Shown: in pieces, positions 4,962 through 20,135 of the stretch
How positions within the stretch are numbered: the first letter of the stretch is position 1
How the letters are laid out: every line of letters starts with the position of its first letter
Assembly: GCF_024699925.1 (NCBI RefSeq)
Contig: NZ_JAJOMX010000001.1
Coordinates: forward strand, 1,588,001-1,652,000
DNA length: 64,000 bases
Direction: 5' to 3'
Source: Mesorhizobium sp. J428
Lineage (GTDB): Bacteria > Pseudomonadota > Alphaproteobacteria > Rhizobiales > Rhizobiaceae
The notes under the pieces: model-generated
What the model saw: only the letters and a program-made list of their open reading frames with translations
What the model was told of the DNA's origin: nothing
Databases searched by the model: none
Program-made: the position numbers and the translations under genes

Positions 4962-5199
4962 AGAAGATATCGAACCGTTCAATCGCCATTCCGCGACCTT
5001 CGCCTACGGCGCGGCGGTTGGATCCAGCCGCTCCCGGATCCACCCGCGTCGCCCCTCCATGTGAATCACCTCACAGACGCGCGCCGCGAATTCGAAGACC
5101 TTCCGCGTACGGCAAGGCCGAATCGAGCCTTGAGCCCAATGAAAAGGAGCGGGCCCAGCGACCCGCATGTTCCCAAATGCCGAAGGACTTTTCATTGTC

Positions 5200-5242
5200 G
5201 TCGTCTGCGCGGGCGGTTCCTCCCGCCGTCCGTGCAGACGAC
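5200..5242 (+). promoter_or_regulatory. Strong stem-loop in the Crp/Fnr leader
   Basis: Arms GTCGTCTGCGCGGGCGG (5200-5216) and CCGTCCGTGCAGACGAC (5226-5242) pair over 17 positions with a 9-nt loop. Two of the pairs are G-U if the plus strand is transcribed, but A-C mismatches if the minus strand is. The structure therefore favours a plus-strand RNA, the leader of the Crp/Fnr gene that starts at 5407. No T-run follows, so it is not a simple terminator. Confidence 0.5.
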
Positions 5243-5406
5243 CCGCCGCGCTCCGCGACGCCCTTCCTGCCGCCCCGCCCCGCGCCGCGGCTGCTGGGAG
5301 CGCGTTTCGAGCGATCCTGTCCTTCATTCGAGTGAGCAACGCCATGCTTTCCACCCTGATCGAGCTGTCGTACAAAGACACCGGACGCCGCGAACGGAGC
5401 ATTCCG

Positions 5407-6084
5407 ATGACGGGCAGCACACATGATGCGGGCGGCGGAGCCCTTCCGGTGCGCATCGGAAGCGGCCTGTTCGACCTGCTGTTCAAGGGATGCCGCATCG
5501 AGCGCTATCCGGCCGGCCAGCACCTGTTCGTGCAGGAGGACGACGCCGACCGGATCTACGGCGTCCTTTCCGGCACCGTCGAGATCTCCCTTTTCTCGCC
5601 CGGCGGGCAGAAGCTGGTTGCCAATATCGAGCTGCACCATAGCCTCGTCGGCGAGATCGGCGCGCTCGACGGCGGCACGAGGACGGCGACCGCGATCTGC
5701 CTGACCGCCTGCGAACTCGTCTCGCTCAGCCGCGCGCAGCTTTTCGAGCGGATGCAGGCCCACCCGGAACTCGCCCGCGCGATGATCGAGCTTCTGTGCG
5801 CGCGGCTGCGCTGGATAAGCGGGGAGATGGGCGACCTGGCCTTTTTTGCCATCGAGGCCCGGCTGGCCAAGCGGCTCGGGCTCCTGTCCGGCATCAGCGC
5901 GGATAAGGACGGCTGGATCGAGCTCTCGCAGGCGGAGCTTGCCGAATTCCTCGGCGCCACCCGCGAATCCGTCAACAAGACGCTGAACGACTGGCGCTCG
6001 CGTGGCGTGATCGAACTGCGCCGCGGCGGCGTGCGGGTCGTCAGCGCGGCGAAGCTGCGCGGCATCGCCAGCGAGGACGATTGA
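5407..6084 (+). CDS. Crp/Fnr-family transcriptional regulator
   Basis: 225 aa from the ATG at 5407, which is preceded by CGGAGC and gives the usual family length; the open frame extends upstream to 5167. The cyclic-nucleotide-binding beta-barrel occupies about residues 15-135 (IYGVLSGTVEIS, LVGEIGALDGGTRTATA). The C-terminal winged helix contains LSQAELAEFLGATRESVNKTLNDW, the recognition helix. No Cys cluster of the Fnr type is seen. The barrel has GEIGALDGGTRTATA where cAMP-binding CRP has GELALxxxxxRxA, so nucleotide binding is plausible but unproven. It is convergent with the P450/DyP locus, with only 27 bp between stops. A class III adenylate cyclase lies beyond that locus. Confidence 0.92.
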   Translation: MTGSTHDAGGGALPVRIGSGLFDLLFKGCRIERYPAGQHLFVQEDDADRIYGVLSGTVEISLFSPGGQKLVANIELHHSLVGEIGALDGGTRTATAICLTACELVSLSRAQLFERMQAHPELARAMIELLCARLRWISGEMGDLAFFAIEARLAKRLGLLSGISADKDGWIELSQAELAEFLGATRESVNKTLNDWRSRGVIELRRGGVRVVSAAKLRGIASEDD

Positions 6085-6111: not shown

Positions 6112-8032
6112 CTACAGCCGCGAGATCATGAAGCGCAGCGCCGCCCGGCTCGGCATGAAGAAATAGCCGCCGCCGCGCGTCGTCACGAAGCTCGGCATCT
6201 CCCTCAGCACGACATTGCCTTCCCATTTCGGGATCGAGAAGCGGCCCTTGCCCTCGTTCGCGCCGATCGTCGGGTCCTTCTCGCCCGCCAGACCGTGGAA
6301 CGAGCGGGCCGACACCCAGGTCTGCTGCATGAACTCTGCATGCCGCTCGATGTCGGCGTTGAGGCACATGAACAGCAGGCCCTTCTCGGTCTCCCCCTTC
6401 TTGGCCGCGGGCACCTCGTAGGTGCGGCCGACGCGCAGGATGCGGTGCCGCTTGCCGATGCTGATCTGCGTGGCGTGGTCGTCGCCCAGCGAGTCACGCG
6501 GGTTGGAGCGGCGGATATGCGCCCCGAACGGGCAGCGCAGCCCCTGCGGGTCCTCGGCACCGTAGGAGAAGGCGTTGTCGACCGGCCGGTCCGGCCGCCC
6601 CTCCGGATTGCGCACCAGAGACGAGCCATCCTTCCAGCGGCCCATCATCTTGGCCGCGATCCACTCCGGCGTGATCGACGGGTCGTCGTGCTCCCTGGCC
6701 TTGGTCTTCGCGGCGAAGACGCAGTAGTCGTCGAAGGCGTCGACGTGCTGCTCGAACTGGCGCACGACGATGAAGGAGCCGTTGCGGCCGAAATCGTGCA
6801 ACGCGTCGGTCGTGCCGTCCGCGCCACGCCGGAAGCGCAGCGAGGACAGGATGCCGGACGGATCATGGTGCGCCTTGACGGCCGGCGACACCGGATAGAA
6901 GCCGTGCTCGTCGCGATAGCCGAACAGGAATTCGCCCGCGGCGACCACATTGGCCTCCGGCGCGCCGCCATTGGCGCGCGCCGTGCCACGCACCGCCGGC
7001 TGCGAGATGCCGTCGGCGAAGCCGAAATGCTCGATCGCCCGGCCGTTGCGGCGCACGGTCTCCGCCCGTTCGTGGCTGGCCGCCGCGGCGCGATCGTAGA
7101 GCTTGGTCTCGAGCGGCGCCTGGCGCCTGGTCTCGAGCGGCAGTTCGAACCCCGGCCACAGGCCGGCAGCCTTCGCGCGCTTCTTCACCTCGGCGACTTT
7201 CTTCGCCAGCAGCGACGGGTCCCTGGCGTAGCAGAGGACGATCATGTCGACCGGTTTTTCGGGCGAGCCCCAGCGCCATTTCCCGGGCTGGCTCTCGCCG
7301 ATGTCGTCGAGGATGCGGCTGCGCTCGGGATGGCCCATGCCCTGCATGAACGCGTTGGGGAAACGCTTGAGCGCCTCCTCGTCGGCGCCGCCGTCGAGGC
7401 CCAGCCGGCTCAGGCCGCGCGGGCCGAAGGCGATGGTCATCGCGCTGTCGCGCGGAATGGGATCGCCGAAGCTGGTCTGCGCGGTCAGGAACTCCAGCCA
7501 CGCCCGCCGCGCGTCGCGGCGCAGGCCGCCCGGCACTTCGAACGCGGTCAGATGGCCGTAGTCCAGCGCGCCGAAGGCGTTGAAGAAGATCGACTGGATC
7601 TCGCCGGACTCCAGCGGCTCGGGCGGTTGCGGCGCCGCGGGCTTCGCGGCCGTCTGCACTGCCTCCTGCGAGACGCGCGGCCGCGGCCGCGATCCGAACA
7701 GGCTGAGCCAGTCGCGCGCCTCGCCGTCGGTGGCACGGCAGATGCCGCGCCGGATACGCGAATTGGTGCGGATGCGCTGCGTGTTGACCTCGGGATAGGC
7801 CGAATACCAGAACAGCGTCGGCACCTGCTGCCGCCTGGCCCAGCGCTTGAAGCGGTCGCCGTCCCTGGCGCCATCCCCGAAGAGGTCTTTTGCACGGGGG
7901 AAGCCGACCGTGTTGCTCCAAATGCCCGTCAGACCCGCCGCAGCCTTGGTGATGAAGTCCTCCAGATAGCTTTCCCAGCTCCCCCCGTAGTTGGAGAAGA
8001 ACACCAGCCGGTCTGTCCCCGGCAGCAGTACT
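6112..8032 (-). CDS. DyP-type peroxidase half of a frameshifted P450-DyP fusion
   Basis: This is the 3' part of one very large gene; reading resumes in a new frame at 8028 after the shift at 8029-8032. It first completes a short domain (VFFSNYGGSWESYLEDFI) and a segment ending near FGSRP. A complete dye-decolourising peroxidase domain follows, with FGFADGISQP (the GxxDG motif, distal Asp, about 7023-6997) and CPFGAHIRRSNPR, whose His (6517-6519) is the expected heme ligand. It ends with a DyP-like region around FMCLNADIERHAEF. DyP enzymes oxidise substrates with H2O2 on heme. No ribosome site or good start exists at the frame junction, so this is not an independent gene. With the frame restored the whole protein would be about 1435 aa. 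Confidence 0.85.
8029..8032 (-). other. Frameshift joining P450 and DyP halves
   Basis: On the minus strand the frame runs NTIHFARW up to codon TGG (8033-8035). The next four bases, AGTA, then lead into CTG CTG CCG (LLPGTDRL) in another frame. Removing one A gives W-V-L-L-P-G and an uninterrupted protein. A GTAC tetranucleotide lies at 8028-8031. The reading frame is intact on both sides for more than 600 codons, so the lesion is either very recent or a sequence error. Confidence 0.85.
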
Positions 8033-10420
8033 CCAGCGGGCGAAATGGATCGTGTTGATGTTCGCCAGATAGCCCGGCCGGAACACCTTCTGGGCCGAGA
8101 TAGAGATGAGGTAGAAACTGAGCCGCAGCGCAAGCCGCCGCAGCGTGCCCGGCTTCATCACGGAAATCGCGGTGAGATGGTTCTGCACCCCGTGGTCTTC
8201 CCGCTTCTGGATCTGCTCCAGCTCCGCGAGCGGGACCGACTCGACGCTGCGTTTGTCGGTCCTCTCAAGCCGGTCGAGCGCGAAGCGTGCGAGAAAGAAA
8301 AGGATCGCGGCGATGAAGGCGAGGCCGATCAAGGCCAGAACCAGCGACGTGCCGCCGACGAGCAGGTTGCGCATGATGCCAGGCGCCGGCCCGAAGACGT
8401 ACCAGTAGATGATCCACGCGCAGGCCGCGATCAGGGCGACCAGCACGGCCGTGAAGCCGACGGAGCCCAGCGTCGCCTGGATTGCCCGGCGGACGTTGCC
8501 CGGCGGACGCTCAAGAAGGCTCTCGGCGGAGCGGAAGGCCCAGTCGAAGCCGCCGTCGGCCTTGAGCTTCTCGCGCACCTCGGCGAGCACGCCGGCGGCG
8601 CCGCGTGCATCACCCGGATGCGGCGTCTCGGCGATGCGTTCCGCGAACGCCGCGAGCTTCGCCTCGGCCCTGATGCGCTGGACGGAATGGCCGGGGGTGC
8701 CGGCGAAGACCAGCCCGGCCGTGCTGCCGAAGGAGGGAGAGATGTCGATGCTGTTCTTGGCGAAGAGCTCTTCGAGGTCGCCGCCGGCGGGAATGTCGCA
8801 GGCCCGCTCCAGGATCGGCCGCACGATCGGGCCGGCATGATGCGCGAGCGCGGCGATGACCTGCCGGCTGTCGCCGTCGCCCGAAAACTCCAGCACCACC
8901 ATGCCGAGCGGCCTGCCGGTGGCCGGATCCACCTTGCCGGTGTCGGCGACCGCGATGCTGGCGAAATGGATGATCCCGGCGGCATCCAGCGCCGCGCGCA
9001 TCTCGTCGCCCGCCGGATTGCCGAGCTTGTCGACGCTGTCGCGGACCTCGCGAAGGTCGACGCCGGGCCGGGTCGGCAGCGCCACCGTGACCAGCGACTG
9101 CGGCGTGATCCTGTCGAGGTCCTCGCGCTCGAAATCGATGCGCAGATGTTCGGGGAACGCGCCGAGGCGCGTCATCTTGCCCGCGCGGCCCGGCATGCGG
9201 CGCACGCCCTTTTTCGCGAAGATCGCCCGCAGGCATTCGCCGATCTGGACGCGCGCCACCTCGATGCCGATGCAGACATGGATGCCGTGGCCGTAGACCA
9301 TGTAGGTCTTCTTCGGACGCTCCGGATCGAACTCGTCCGGCCGCTCGACCACGTCGGGGTCGAACATGGCCGACAGCGTCGCCGGCATCACCGTCGATTT
9401 GTGCGGGATGACCTTCTCGCGCGGCGTGCCTTCGGCGATGCGCAGGTCAGCCGACGCATAGCGCCAGGGGCCGATCCAGATCGGCTTGAAGCGCATCGCC
9501 TCCAGCACCGCCTTGTCCAGCGCCTTGATGTCGCCAGCGCCGACCGCGACACGGACCGCTGTCTGCGCCTCCGGCTTCGACAGGATGACATCGAGGCAGT
9601 TGCCGCCGGCGAGCAGGTTGGTGGGTGCGAAGCCGGAGATCATGCCCAGCATGACCGAGTGGACCTCCTCCAGCTTGAGGACGCCCTGGTCGATCATCGC
9701 CACCATGCGCGAGAGCGGCGTGTCGGGCAGCGCGGTGCCTTCACGGACGGCGGCGATGGAGCGGTCGACGGCCCTGATCATCCGGTCGGCGGCGACAACG
9801 GCCAGCTCGCGCGTCACCTTGCTCGCCGTCGGGTCGGAGAAGAAGATCGACGAGAGTGCGATCGACCAGTCGGCGAACTCGTCCTCATCGTCGACGATCA
9901 TGCCGAAATATTCGCGGCAGATCTTCACCGGCACGATCTTCATCAGCCCGGCGATCGCATCGAAGCCGGGCGTGGCGCGGTCCACGATCTCGCGCGCATG
10001 CCGGGCGGCTATGGGGCGCACGCGCGCATCCACCTCGGCCGGCGGAAAGGCGCTGAGCAGCGGCTTCTTCAGCTTGCGGTAGTCGGGCCCGTCCTGCATG
10101 CCGAGGATGAAGTTGGAGCCGCCGGCCATCTCGGTCATCTCGAGGCCGTAGGGCGTGATGAACTCGCTCTCGCGCTCCAGGATCTCGCGCACGTCGGCGT
10201 CGCGGGTCACGAGAACGAACTTGCCGACGCGCACCGTCGGCCACCAGCGCCGAACGATCTTCAGCCACCAACGGGGGTCGTCGAAGATCAGGCCCTTGAA
10301 CCACTCGCCGATGCCGCCCTTCGATCGGAGCCGGCCGAGATCGAACGGCGGCATGTCGGAGACGGGTCCCTGTTCGGCCTGCGCCTTGAGCACCCCGTCG
10401 AAATATTTCGTCTTGATCAT
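8033..10420 (-). CDS. Cytochrome P450 / two-TM half of a frameshifted P450-DyP fusion
   Basis: 796 codons before the frameshift; translation would otherwise run on out of frame to 6863. Residues 1-430 are a cytochrome P450: ExxR as EAMR (307-310), heme loop YGHGIHVCIG with the Cys ligand at 383, and an I-helix SGFAPTN (262-268) that lacks the usual acid-alcohol pair and carries a Pro before the Thr. Residues 440-640 form a domain with GIIHFASIAV and VVLEFSGDGDS. Two hydrophobic segments at about 654-676 and 686-712 should anchor the protein in the inner membrane. The sequence NTIHFARW at 789-796 then repeats the 482-490 motif. No ferredoxin or reductase gene is adjacent, so a peroxide shunt fed together with the DyP domain is conceivable. 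Confidence 0.87.
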
Positions 10421-10697: not shown

Positions 10698-12470
10698 TCA
10701 ACCGGGCCTCGCCATCTCGAAACCGGCGATCAGGAAGTCGTTTGCCGCCCGGTCGACGAATGGAATCCACCGGACGCGCTGCACGGTGAAGTCCGGATGG
10801 CGCGTGTCGAAGATCGCGCGCTCGCGCGCGGCCTCCTCCATGCGGCCGCTGCGCGTCAGCGCGCCGATCTTCAGGAAGCGCGCATAGAAATAGCCCGGCG
10901 AGAGCGCCAGCGACCGTTCCGCCGTTTCGATCACGGCCGGCCACTGCTCCATGAGGCTGTAGGCGGCGGCGAGCTCGCCGAGGTTGTGGAAGCTGTAGAT
11001 GTCGAACGGGCTGAGCCGCTCCGCGTCGCGGAACAGCGGGATGGCCGCCGCCGGCTCGTTGAGCAGCAGCCGCGCGCTGCCCATGGCCGAGCGCGCGAAG
11101 GCAAAGCTCGGATTGATGTGCAGCGCGACCTCGAGGTGCTCGACGGCCCGGGCCGGCCGGCCGCGCATGATCTCCATCGCACCGAGATTGGCATGCGGGC
11201 GTGCATCCTGGCTGTCCATCAGCAGCGCCTTGTGGGCGAACTGCGCGACGCGCTCGAGATCCTCGCTGTCGCCGAAGCGCAGCCAGGCCCGCCAGAACCA
11301 CCACCAGGCGAGCTCGTTCAGCACCGCGCTGGAATTCGGGTCCTGGCTGTAGGCCTTGGTGAAAAGCTCCAGGGCGAGCTCGGTGTCCTGGCCGGTGCGC
11401 CGCGCCATGTGCCAGCGTCCGCGCAGCACGAGCTGCCAGGTCTCCAGCGTTTCCCACGGCACCTGGAAGGTGCGCGCCTGCTCGACGCGGTCGACCTCTT
11501 TCTCCAGGATGGCCACGATCTCGCTGCCGATCTCGTTCTGCAGCGCGAAGACGTCGTCGAGCGCCCGGTTGAAGCGGCGCGACCAGACGAGGCGCCCATT
11601 CGAGGCATCGACCAGGGCGACGGAGATGCGGATCTCGGCCGCGTTGCGGGCGAGCGTGCCGCGCACGACATAGCGCGCGCCGAGCGCATTGCCGACGAGG
11701 CGGATGTCGAGCGCGTCGTCGCGGAACTGCGCCGAGGAGCCGGTCGAGATGACCGAGATCCAGCGCACATTGGACAGGCCGCGGCCGATCTCGTCGGCGA
11801 TGCCGTCGGCGAGATAGGCAAGTTCGCGCTCTCCGTCGTGGCGGAAGGGCAGCATGGCGATCGCGGGCGGCCCCTGCGGTGTCGACAGATGCTTAAGCAG
11901 CCCGAGCGGCAGCTGGGCGGGCGCAACGTCGTCGCCCGACGCATTCACCCGGCCGGCCGCGAAGACGCGCACCGGCAGCGTGATGTTCTTGAGCGACAGC
12001 ACGCCGAGATCGGTGAACTCCGCGGCCGCCTTGTCCTTGACGTGATGCCACGTCGTCTCGGAGATCGTCAGCCCGCCATGCGGCGCGAATTCCTGGATGC
12101 GCGCGGCGATGTTGACGTCGTCGCCGTAGAGCCGGCCTTCATGCGCGATCACGTCGCCTGTGTTGATGCCGGCGCGGAACGGCATGCGCCGGCTCGGCGG
12201 GGCGGCCTCGTTCAGCGCCGATATCCGCTCCTGGAAGTCGAATGCCGCCAGCAGCGCTTCCACCGGATTGCCGAACTCGGCCATGATCGAGTCGCCGGCG
12301 TCGCCGAAGGTGCGGCCGCCATGCACGCCGCAGCGCTCGACGATGATGTCGCGCCTTTCCTCGAAGGCGGACAGCGCCGCCTCGTCATCCATGCCCATCA
12401 GCCGCGAGAATCCCGCCGCATCGATCGACATGATCGTTGCGAGCTGTCGGATATATCGCCGAGCAGCCAT
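10698..12470 (-). CDS. Class III adenylate/guanylate cyclase with TolB-like and TPR regions
   Basis: 590 aa from the ATG at 12470; an upstream open extension to 12665 has low-complexity, non-conserved sequence. The cyclase homology domain covers about residues 8-170: MSIDAAGFSRLM with the first metal Asp, GDAGDSIMAEF with the second, AGINTGDVI, and GDDVNIAARIQEFA with the purine and transition-state residues. A TolB/CadC-like segment follows (AIAMLPFRHDGERELAYLADGIADEI), then TPR-like helices (HANLGAMEIMRGRPARAVEHL). No membrane segment is seen, so the protein is probably cytosolic. It makes cAMP or cGMP. This architecture is common and multi-copy in rhizobia. It lies 277 bp upstream of the P450-DyP gene, same strand. 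Confidence 0.9.
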   Translation of the reverse strand: MAARRYIRQLATIMSIDAAGFSRLMGMDDEAALSAFEERRDIIVERCGVHGGRTFGDAGDSIMAEFGNPVEALLAAFDFQERISALNEAAPPSRRMPFRAGINTGDVIAHEGRLYGDDVNIAARIQEFAPHGGLTISETTWHHVKDKAAAEFTDLGVLSLKNITLPVRVFAAGRVNASGDDVAPAQLPLGLLKHLSTPQGPPAIAMLPFRHDGERELAYLADGIADEIGRGLSNVRWISVISTGSSAQFRDDALDIRLVGNALGARYVVRGTLARNAAEIRISVALVDASNGRLVWSRRFNRALDDVFALQNEIGSEIVAILEKEVDRVEQARTFQVPWETLETWQLVLRGRWHMARRTGQDTELALELFTKAYSQDPNSSAVLNELAWWWFWRAWLRFGDSEDLERVAQFAHKALLMDSQDARPHANLGAMEIMRGRPARAVEHLEVALHINPSFAFARSAMGSARLLLNEPAAAIPLFRDAERLSPFDIYSFHNLGELAAAYSLMEQWPAVIETAERSLALSPGYFYARFLKIGALTRSGRMEEAARERAIFDTRHPDFTVQRVRWIPFVDRAANDFLIAGFEMARPG

Positions 12471-12680
12471 GCTAGCAGACTTGTCCTTCTCGCCCGCGCT
12501 CGCCGGCCTGATGGCCGGCCCGGCAGCATGTTGCTTAACCCCTCGCCGCGGCACACGTGACGATGCTTCGGCCCCCTCGCCGGGTTTCAGGCTAACAGGA
12601 CGTAACGTAAACCTCCACAGCCGAGACGTTGCATCGCGGTGGAAATGGCGCCTGACCGCGTCCAAAAAGTTATCCGGACG

Positions 12681-18237: not shown

Positions 18238-18983
18238 ATGAACTGGTCTTTCCAGCTTTACAGCGCCCGTAACTTCAAGCCCTGGAGCGACGTGCTGAAG
18301 CTCGTCTCCGGGCTGGGCTACAAGGAGGTCGAGGGTTTCGGCGGGGTCTATGACGACCCGAAGGCCTTTCGCGCCGACATGGACCGCAATGGTCTCGCGA
18401 TGCCGTCCGGCCATTTCTCGATCGACGCGCTGGAGGGCGATTTCGACGGCGTGCGGCGCATCGCCGACACGCTTGGCGTGACGCTGATCGTCTGTCCCTA
18501 CCTGATGCCCGACAAACGCCCGGCCGACACCGCCGGCTGGAAGGCCTTCGGCGAGCGGCTCGCTGCCGTCGGCGACAAGGCGAAGAAGGCCGGATACGGT
18601 TTTGCCTGGCACAACCACGACTTTGAATTCAAGGCGCTGCCCGACGGCTCGCTGCCGCAGAAGCTGACCCTCGACGCCGCTCCCTCGATCGGACTGGAAC
18701 TCGACGTCGCCTGGGTCGACGCGGCGGCGCCGATCCGGCGACGTGGATCGCCGATTACGCCGACCGTATCCTCGCCGTCCACGTGAAGGACATTGCGCCG
18801 GCCGGGCAGAACGCGAACGAGGACGGCTGGGCCGATGTCGGCCACGGCACCATCGCGTGGAAGCCGCTGATGGCCGCGCTGCGCACGAAGACGCCGGCGA
18901 AAGTCTACGTAATGGAACACGACAACCCGTCCGACCTCGAACGCTTTGCGAAGCGGTCGATCGAAGCGGTAAAGTCATACTGA
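18238..18983 (+). CDS. Sugar phosphate isomerase/epimerase (AP-endonuclease-2 TIM barrel), frameshifted
   Basis: Begins MNWSFQLYSARNFKPW and keeps the TIM-barrel metal-site segments FAWHNHDFEF and LELDVAWVD. Near 18729-18731 one base is missing: the frame leaves at AAAP and resumes as DPATWIADYADRILAVHVKD in the plus-one frame, then VGHGTIAWKPLM and VMEHDNPSD to the true C-terminus at 18983. Restored length is about 248 aa. The family isomerises or epimerises keto-sugars, for example 3-keto-glycosides and inosose-like compounds, in step with Gfo/Idh/MocA dehydrogenases such as the next gene. A short start at 18783 belongs to this same protein, not to a separate gene. Confidence 0.85.
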
Positions 18984-18995
18984 GAGATCGCGGAC

Positions 18996-20135
18996 ATGGT
19001 TGCGAAGAAGAAACTGCGCGTCGGCGTCGTCGGCTGCGGCAACATCTCGACCGCCTATTTCCGCCTGGCGCCGCTGTTCAAGGGCGTGCGCATGGTCGCC
19101 TGCGCCGACCTGAAGCCGGAGCTCGCCGAGACGCAGGCCAAGGCCTTCGGCCTGCGCGCCATGACGGTCGACGGACTGCTTGCCGACAAGGACATCGATA
19201 TCGTCGTGAACCTGACTGTGCCGGCGGCGCACTATCCCATCTCCAAGGCGGCGCTCGACGCCGGCAAGCATGTCTATTCCGAAAAGCCCTTCGTGCTGTC
19301 GCTGAAGGAAGGGCTCGACCTGAAGAAGCGGGCGGAGAAGAAGGGCCTCCGCATCGGCTCGGCGCCGGACACCTTCCTCGGCGGCGCGCACCAGCAGGCC
19401 CGCGCGCTGGTCGATGCCGGCAAGATCGGCAAGGTCACGTCGGGCGTCTGCCACGTGATGAACCACGGCATGGAGCACTGGCACCCGAATCCCGACTTCT
19501 TCTATGCACCGGGCGGCGGACCGATCCTCGATCTGGGGCCGTACTACGTCTCCAGCCTCGTGCAGTTGATAGGGCCGGTGGCCAAGGTCGCCGCGGTGAC
19601 CTCGATCCCGCAGGCCAGGCGCACGATCTCGAACGGGCCGCGCACCGGCGAAAGCGTGCCGGTCGGCACACCGACGACGATCCACGCGCTGCTGCATTTC
19701 GCCAACGGCGCGGTGGTGACCCTCAACGCCTCATGGGACGTGTGGTCCCACGGGCATGCGCCGATCGAGCTCTACGGCGAGGAAGGGACGATGCTGGTGC
19801 CCGATCCGAACTTCTTCGGCGGCACGGTGGGTCTCACGCGCCAGGACAAGCCGGTGAAGAAGCTGCCGGCCTGGAACCATCCGCTCGGCGTGCCCAACCA
19901 GCAGTCGCCGCGCGGCCCGCTGGCGAACTACCGCACGATCGGGCTCGCCGACATGGCGCTGGGCATACTGGAAGACCGGCCGCACCGCTGTTCGCTCGAC
20001 TTTGCGCTGCACGCGATCGACATCATGACCGCGATCCTGCAATCGGGCGAGACGGGCAAATTCGTCACGCTGACGACCAACTGCGAACGGCCGGCCGCGC
20101 TTGACCCGGCCACGGCGCGCAGGATGATGGCCTGA
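18996..20135 (+). CDS. Gfo/Idh/MocA-family NAD(P)-dependent oxidoreductase
   Basis: 379 aa. The N-terminal Rossmann fold is RVGVVGCGNISTAYF, followed by DIVVNLTVPAAHYPISKAAL and the conserved HVYSEKPFVLS, whose EKP lysine is catalytic. The C-terminal alpha/beta substrate domain contains DLGPYYVSSLVQLIGPV with the usual Asp and HisTyr-position residues. It follows the isomerase by 12 bp. It probably oxidises a sugar hydroxyl, often at C3, of the imported carbohydrate. The substrate is not determinable here. Confidence 0.93.
   Translation: MVAKKKLRVGVVGCGNISTAYFRLAPLFKGVRMVACADLKPELAETQAKAFGLRAMTVDGLLADKDIDIVVNLTVPAAHYPISKAALDAGKHVYSEKPFVLSLKEGLDLKKRAEKKGLRIGSAPDTFLGGAHQQARALVDAGKIGKVTSGVCHVMNHGMEHWHPNPDFFYAPGGGPILDLGPYYVSSLVQLIGPVAKVAAVTSIPQARRTISNGPRTGESVPVGTPTTIHALLHFANGAVVTLNASWDVWSHGHAPIELYGEEGTMLVPDPNFFGGTVGLTRQDKPVKKLPAWNHPLGVPNQQSPRGPLANYRTIGLADMALGILEDRPHRCSLDFALHAIDIMTAILQSGETGKFVTLTTNCERPAALDPATARRMMA

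Follow-up and report, generated by a model that had tools for sequence, protein, structure and literature searches.

A cytochrome P450 fused to a DyP-type peroxidase in Mesorhizobium points to an undescribed bacterial two-heme system with a probable peroxide relay

Introduction

Machines combining a peroxidase with a cytochrome P450 (P450) are already known in fungi, and those combining a catalase with a lipoxygenase in corals and cyanobacteria. In fungi, plants, corals and Nostoc, the hydroperoxides of fatty acids are isomerised or cleaved by P450s and by enzymes related to catalase (PMC13049297 and PMC5617202). The fungal linoleate dioxygenases are fused to P450s and the hydroperoxide is isomerised without a redox chain, and the product of a Nostoc dioxygenase passes to a catalase-related lyase (both in passages of PMC13049297). 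A Pseudomonas fatty-acid dioxygenase belongs to the RoxA-type di-heme family (passage of PMC4496055), and another fusion of a DyP-type peroxidase (DyP) is described with a pyruvate formate-lyase domain (passage of PMC5041501). Here we analysed a stretch of 64,000 nucleotides of Mesorhizobium sp. J428 (contig NZ_JAJOMX010000001.1, positions 1,588,001 to 1,652,000; hereafter the window), in which one gene joins a P450 to a DyP through two related domains, d1 and d2, and two hydrophobic helices. Searches of open-access papers aimed at a link between P450 and DyP, or at DyPs with lipids, listed no such fusion or system; an initial annotation made from the sequence likewise knew of no characterised member. 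The gene and its domains are as follows.

6112..10420, minus strand: P450–d1–helix–helix–d2–DyP fusion gene, about 1,435 codons, with one frame break
9125..10420, minus strand: cytochrome P450 domain, about residues 1-432, with Cys383, E307xxR310 and the I-helix GFAPTN (Pfam, fold, conservation)
8501..9103, minus strand: domain d1, about residues 440-640, alpha/beta, homologous to d2
8267..8485, minus strand: two hydrophobic helices, about residues 646-677 and 681-718 (hydropathy of the relative P0004; model of the relative L007)
7684..8182, minus strand: domain d2, about residues 747-912, signature IHFARW / SNYGGSWESYLEDF, containing the frame break
6115..7602, minus strand: DyP-type peroxidase domain, about residues 940-1435, with Asp1136, His1301 and Arg1329 (Pfam, fold)

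The window protein resembles the fungal Ppo proteins and linoleate diol synthases (DOX-CYP) in having two heme enzymes per chain, one peroxidase-type and one P450, in the HxC before the heme thiolate, and in a P450 that would be expected to need no redox chain. The domain order, however, is reversed, and the d1/d2 pair and membrane hairpin are unmentioned for Ppo in the passages concerned of PMC4420034 and PMC13049297, which place the fungal peroxidase in the peroxidase-cyclooxygenase superfamily; the window peroxidase, a DyP by Pfam and fold, does not belong there. The initial annotation had proposed a bacterial analogue of Ppo, and this proposal gained indirect support from the P450/catalase-like exchange and the lipase-type genes described below; the peroxidase is of a different superfamily, so that the analogy would apply in non-homologous form. 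In the coral and cyanobacterial systems, a catalase-related allene oxide synthase or hydroperoxide lyase accompanies a lipoxygenase or dioxygenase, so that a catalase-type heme enzyme adjoins the first oxidative enzyme, as in ten split loci of the present system; the first enzyme here is instead a DyP, and the catalase-like proteins are known here by sequence. Among the matches listed, the solved DyPs of the Deinococcus and fungal type (8re2, 2d3q and 7anv) cover the DyP part only, whereas the window DyP is fused to d1/d2, membrane helices and a P450.

The fusion gene and its intact relatives

The fusion gene was present in one copy in its own genome, as judged by a genome search. Two overlapping minus-strand frames, spanning 10420 to 6112, carry it, of which the first encodes the P450, d1, the two hydrophobic helices and the start of d2, and the second the remainder of d2 and the DyP, with a single frame break between about 8,020 and 8,060. 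Both p450 and Dyp_perox_C scored above their Pfam cut-offs in this gene, and the NCBIfam DyP superfamily model gave 93.5 bits, below its cut-off of 100.5. The first domain has the fold, the ExxR motif and the heme-thiolate Cys of the P450 superfamily, and the last has the DyP fold with the GxxDG Asp, proximal His and distal Arg of DyP-type peroxidases. Domains d1 and d2 are homologous copies, and a Pfam scan of d1 gave nothing above cut-off. The paired domains and two membrane helices noted in the initial annotation were thus recovered, the helices as predictions from two relatives. Homology of d2 to the DyP domain was also considered, and found no support in profile comparison (hhalign probability 0.3). 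Fold searches with larger pieces of the protein gave lists occupied by P450s and DyPs.

The initial annotation had read two heme enzymes in one gene of about 1435 amino acids (aa) once the frame was repaired, and had added that homologues encoded consistently as separate genes would make the fusion an artefact. The best 80 of 226 related loci were fetched from species genomes, and 78 of them carried all four domains (P450, d1, d2 and DyP) on a single uninterrupted frame 1,380 aa or more in length; the exceptions were L059, cut by a contig end, and Ensifer L085, without the P450. A frame of at least 1,418 aa was also found at the match in five of six other genomes of the genus, while the sixth (81% complete) had no match. 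A homologue search gave 182 matches at E <= 0.001 from 7,993 candidates scored, and 116 of the 120 listed were 1,370–1,530 aa long. The single-frame copies ruled out an assembly artefact, and the P450–DyP fusion is real. The fused gene is found in close kin; more distant kin have the parts as separate genes or as fusions of reversed order. This pattern favours a functional connection between the two enzymes. The automatic names of the homologues were cytochrome P450, cytochrome P450-like protein or Dyp-type peroxidase, and once among the matches listed (P0027) "cytochrome P450/deferrochelatase/peroxidase EfeB"; automatic annotation has therefore seen both halves. Some relatives (P0010, L006 and L074) were longer near the membrane helices, and the extra stretch of P0010 resembled a second helix pair.

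The frame break of the window gene may be an assembly error. A second break is probably located near 18,720, in a gene reading like a sugar isomerase/epimerase, which makes indel errors in this assembly plausible. At 18238-18996 of the window, a 182-aa frame was matched by five congeners over its first 161-162 residues only, and another frame carries on.

Conservation of the two heme centers

The residues Cys383, Glu307 and Arg310 of the P450 and Asp1136, His1301 and Arg1329 of the DyP were invariant in 118 fused rows (116 database proteins and the Novosphingobium and Sulfitobacter fusions), bearing out the Cys383 with EAMR and the GxxDG with heme-ligand His picked out in the initial annotation. 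The same held beyond the fused rows, as ExxR and Cys were kept in all 32 P450s of the system (14 fused at the N end, or N-fused, 14 separate and 4 C-fused, with the near-copies L191/L192 and L206-L208 retained), and the DyP Asp, His and Arg in 53 of 53 DyPs.

The I-helix reads GFxPT in the fused rows, with Pro at the acid position and Thr at the alcohol position in 118/118. As relatives having the normal acid–threonine pair show GA[IV]DT in the same alignment columns, which fixes the register, Pro266 stands in place of the acid and the threonine persists as Thr267. The acid–alcohol pair had been described as absent; the acid is indeed gone, but the threonine stays. Over the 32 system P450s, the acid position was occupied by Pro (25), Ala (3), Asp (2), Gly (1) or Val (1), and the alcohol position by Thr (25), Gln (4), Val (2) or Ala (1). 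No redox partner was found among the nine nearby window genes tested. The CYP152 peroxygenases are similar in that they lack the full acid–alcohol pair and use peroxide. Their residues at these positions are, however, Arg-Pro, and the Pro-Thr of the window P450 ruled out membership of CYP152.

These residues bear on the possibility that the P450 is an ordinary O2-dependent monooxygenase with a borrowed housekeeping redox partner, and that the DyP scavenges hydrogen peroxide (H2O2) leaked by uncoupling. Retention of Thr267 in all 118 rows and of the normal acid–threonine pair in two of the 32 P450s agrees with this explanation, but the loss of the acid in the remaining 30 does not, and we consider it unlikely.

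Layouts of the wider system

Members were surveyed by scoring the best candidates per genome only, the own genome included. A core profile found them in 12 genomes of the class out of 385, and a d2 profile in 27 of 398 genomes of the phylum and 32 of 199 of the family. Three layouts were recognised: the P450 at the N end, as in the window, the DyP followed by the P450 in one chain (L116, L118, L202 and L203), and adjacent genes (L110, L111, L113, L114, L119, L179, L180, L186, L191, L192, L194, L197 and Skermanella L090), of which L180 and L191/L192 lie outside the class of the window. At L109:4780-8636 (G264), the P450 stands in a frame overlapping the d1-d2-DyP frame, and the fusion there may be split or broken. 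The core without a P450 is common: a search gave 2,136 homologues at E <= 0.001, and most of the 120 that were listed had 950–1,025 aa. Such P450-free cores at L087:6939-11108 (Rhizobium) and L112:7382-12002 are each followed by a gene of the endonuclease/exonuclease/phosphatase family. Neighbours of d2/DyP genes at L089:9338-10378 (Nostoc plasmid) and L195:7210-8217 are 335-346 aa long with similar starts, and the one at L195 had no Pfam match.

In a tree of the DyPs, the four DyP–P450 fusions grouped in a single clade (support 100/99), separate from the N-fused type. The N-fused label requires two changes on this tree and the catalase-like label four, with the deepest forks weak. The simplest account is that the two fusion orders arose as separate events and that the second heme enzyme changed more than once. 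The distances among P450s and among DyPs were correlated, with r = 0.65 (n = 32) and 0.49 (n = 18, N-fused excluded; 0 of 5,000 permutations in each case), a correlation to which shared ancestry or species history contributes.

Exchange of the second heme enzyme

The second heme enzyme was examined in 35 loci, which were the non-N-fused members of the class, phylum and family surveys (near-duplicate L192 dropped, G148 contributing two loci; 12 of the N-fused members were fetched). Within the available stretch of up to 19 kb, 16 of the loci had a P450 and 10 a catalase-like protein; no locus had both, and nine had neither. The mutual exclusion gave a Fisher p of 5.5e-4, a value not corrected for kinship. 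The C-terminal part of L120 resembled a P450 only weakly (hhalign E 2.5e-4 and probability 43; reversed control 0.3) and was counted as "neither". The P450 background was taken from 28 of the 34 non-N-fused genomes (G479, G426, G606, G719, G930 and G872 left out), where 0.6–0.7 P450 neighbours were expected by chance against 16 observed; in G304 and G470, the sole Pfam P450 found in the genome was that of the locus.

The profile by which the catalase-like set was recognised had been built from five of its ten proteins. A profile of nine of the ten matched 55 solved sequences, the best at E 1.1e-10; these were catalases, the protein 3e4w and the allene oxide synthase–lipoxygenase of corals (1u5u and 3dy5; 1u5u at E 1.7e-7), and this comparison with PDB sequences identified the exchanged partner as a catalase homologue. 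Taken singly, L189 and L196 were above the Pfam Catalase cut-off and L201, L115, L188 and L193 below it; no Pfam Catalase match was obtained for L181, L185, L187, L200 or the fused L193 frame, and NCBIfam gave nothing for the five catalase-like proteins tested. At L193:9188-11890, a DyP and a catalase-like part share one 900-aa frame, recognised by profile only, and another catalase-like gene is nearby.

The exchange also bears on the O2-dependent monooxygenase introduced above. The catalase-like protein substitutes for the P450 and not for the DyP, and the scavenger role assigned to the DyP misfits this substitution.

Neighbouring genes

The fusion gene is flanked by two genes in the window.

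10698..12665, minus strand: class III nucleotide cyclase with TPR repeats, on the strand of the fusion gene and upstream of it (Pfam Guanylate_cyc at 24.2 bits against a cut-off of 21.9)
5167..6084, plus strand: Crp/Fnr-type regulator (cNMP_binding and HTH_Crp_2), convergent

In 75 of the 80 fused-type and near-kin loci, BLAST found a same-strand relative of the window cyclase upstream; a relative of the Crp/Fnr gene was downstream and convergent, likewise in 75, and 72 loci had both. The missing neighbours include two cyclase cases at contig ends and one Crp case (L084), where the flank is 1.1 kb long; the Ensifer copy has neither gene. The same trio of cyclase, fusion and Crp/Fnr gene was found at a Pararhizobium plasmid copy, and the Novosphingobium and Sulfitobacter fusions have upstream relatives of the cyclase protein with TPR but no Pfam cyclase match. 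In 60 aligned cyclases, the residues that we take to be the two metal Asp and the Asn/Arg were invariant, and Gly was found at what is presumably the adenine-specifying Lys position of adenylate cyclases; because of this Gly, the product may not be cyclic AMP (cAMP). Around the 35 non-N-fused loci, cyclase–AAA–TPR giant proteins, an architecture differing from that of the Mesorhizobium cyclase, were detected by profile near eight (L116, L120, L194, L196, L197, L202, L203 and L204; Pfam Guanylate_cyc present in six), with L115 excluded as its match covers the TPR repeats only. A Crp-type gene was near four.

These neighbours would suit a redox or lipid-peroxide sensor whose signal is passed on by the cyclase and the Crp regulator beside it, with catalysis secondary. 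The recurrence of both genes in the fused-type and near-kin loci and the other-architecture cyclases near eight of the 35 other loci, six of them Pfam-confirmed, speak for such a sensor. The catalytic residues of both hemes are nevertheless kept, most of the 35 loci show no cyclase and only four a Crp gene, which makes this explanation quite unlikely.

Lipase-type genes were observed in or beside five loci, namely patatins at L191 and L115, an LCAT-like gene at L114, a Tle1-like gene at L113 and a GDSL match at L183. The L191 patatin gene overlaps both the DyP and the P450 genes, and L183:392-5155 is a 1,587-aa frame with d2, DyP and a weak C-terminal GDSL match, which scored 27.0 bits against a cut-off of 32.9. 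At L182, a di-heme cytochrome c peroxidase with RoxA-like similarity is two genes away, and would fall in the wider family of the Pseudomonas fatty-acid dioxygenase (passage of PMC4496055). No lipoxygenase was found among the neighbours scanned.

A nucleotide cyclase together with a lipase effector would also be expected of an anti-phage system of the Pycsar or CBASS type. Indeed, the L194 cyclase matched Pycsar (PycC) cyclase models with 56.8 bits and the L191 patatin matched CBASS phospholipase models with 199.5 bits. On the other hand, no PADLOC match at E 0.01 was obtained for the window cyclase, the window DyP piece, the L114 d2, the L115 patatin or the L112 neighbour, the window Crp gene matched only the N part of PycTIR-type models, and the gene order is constant across Mesorhizobium and relatives. 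We regard a defence function as very improbable.

The lipase-type genes are relevant, too, to an arrangement in which a peroxygenase and a peroxidase share H2O2 on aromatic or xenobiotic substrates and hand no hydroperoxide between the hemes. DyPs are generally known for dyes and lignin-type aromatics, and the loss of the P450 acid and the absence of a redox partner among the nine window genes tested would be compatible with it; it leaves both the P450/catalase-like exchange and the lipase-type genes unexplained, and appears unlikely.

Discussion

The fusion, with both heme sites conserved, recurs in linkage with a cyclase and a Crp/Fnr gene, and its P450 is exchanged for a catalase-like protein elsewhere. 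These results point to an undescribed bacterial system, probably a two-heme peroxide machine; the observation made in the initial annotation was confirmed and its interpretation partly supported. We tentatively favor a membrane-anchored relay in which a hydroperoxide passes between the two hemes, although our confidence in it falls short of even. It is the best reading because the second enzymes come from families acting on hydroperoxides, the P450 acid is lost, and no redox partner was found among the window genes tested. The d1/d2 pair and the two-helix hairpin would form a scaffold holding DyP and P450 on the same membrane face. The DyP domain would make or consume a peroxide, most likely the hydroperoxide of a lipid or a similar hydrophobic molecule, and lipids are probably the substrate of the relay. 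The P450, with its acid lost and no redox partner nearby, would rearrange, cleave or use the peroxide without an electron-transfer chain, a slot that the catalase-like protein would fill in other bacteria. The neighbouring nucleotide cyclase and Crp/Fnr regulator probably control expression.

Several points weigh against the relay. We found no activity of any member. DyPs are H2O2-dependent peroxidases, and to our knowledge none acts as a lipid dioxygenase; nor do we know of most of these bacteria making polyunsaturated fatty acids. The threonine is kept in 25 of the 32 P450s and the acid–threonine pair in two, which leaves conventional O2 chemistry, served by a redox partner encoded elsewhere, at the low likelihood given above. 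The lipases were noticed among the part of the neighbours that was scanned, with no background rate, and most of the catalase-like proteins are below the Pfam cut-off or have no match. The P450 is not essential to the core, since the P450-free core is widespread and both partners are missing from nine of the 35 loci, although L182, L183 and L199 among these nine have little flank on one or both sides.

A broader form of the relay would be an oxylipin-type lipid oxidation of bacteria, in which the DyP with its d1/d2 scaffold would oxidise a lipid released from the membrane. The resulting hydroperoxide would be converted by a second heme enzyme that can be exchanged, either a P450, a catalase-like protein or perhaps a di-heme cytochrome c. 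Depending on the lineage, the set would be fused, fused in reverse order or divided into separate genes, and it would often be under cyclic-nucleotide control. In this extended form the proposal is doubtful. If true, a DyP would replace the lipoxygenase or the cyclooxygenase-like dioxygenase in lipid oxidation, and a non-homologous bacterial set whose exchangeable partners belong to the same two families would suggest that the two-heme design arose more than once. The set spans more than one class of Pseudomonadota. It would assign a physiological role to a group of DyPs and would be a source of P450s that may function without a redox partner, and as the same DyP scaffold exists with a P450, with a catalase-like protein and with neither, a direct comparison is possible.

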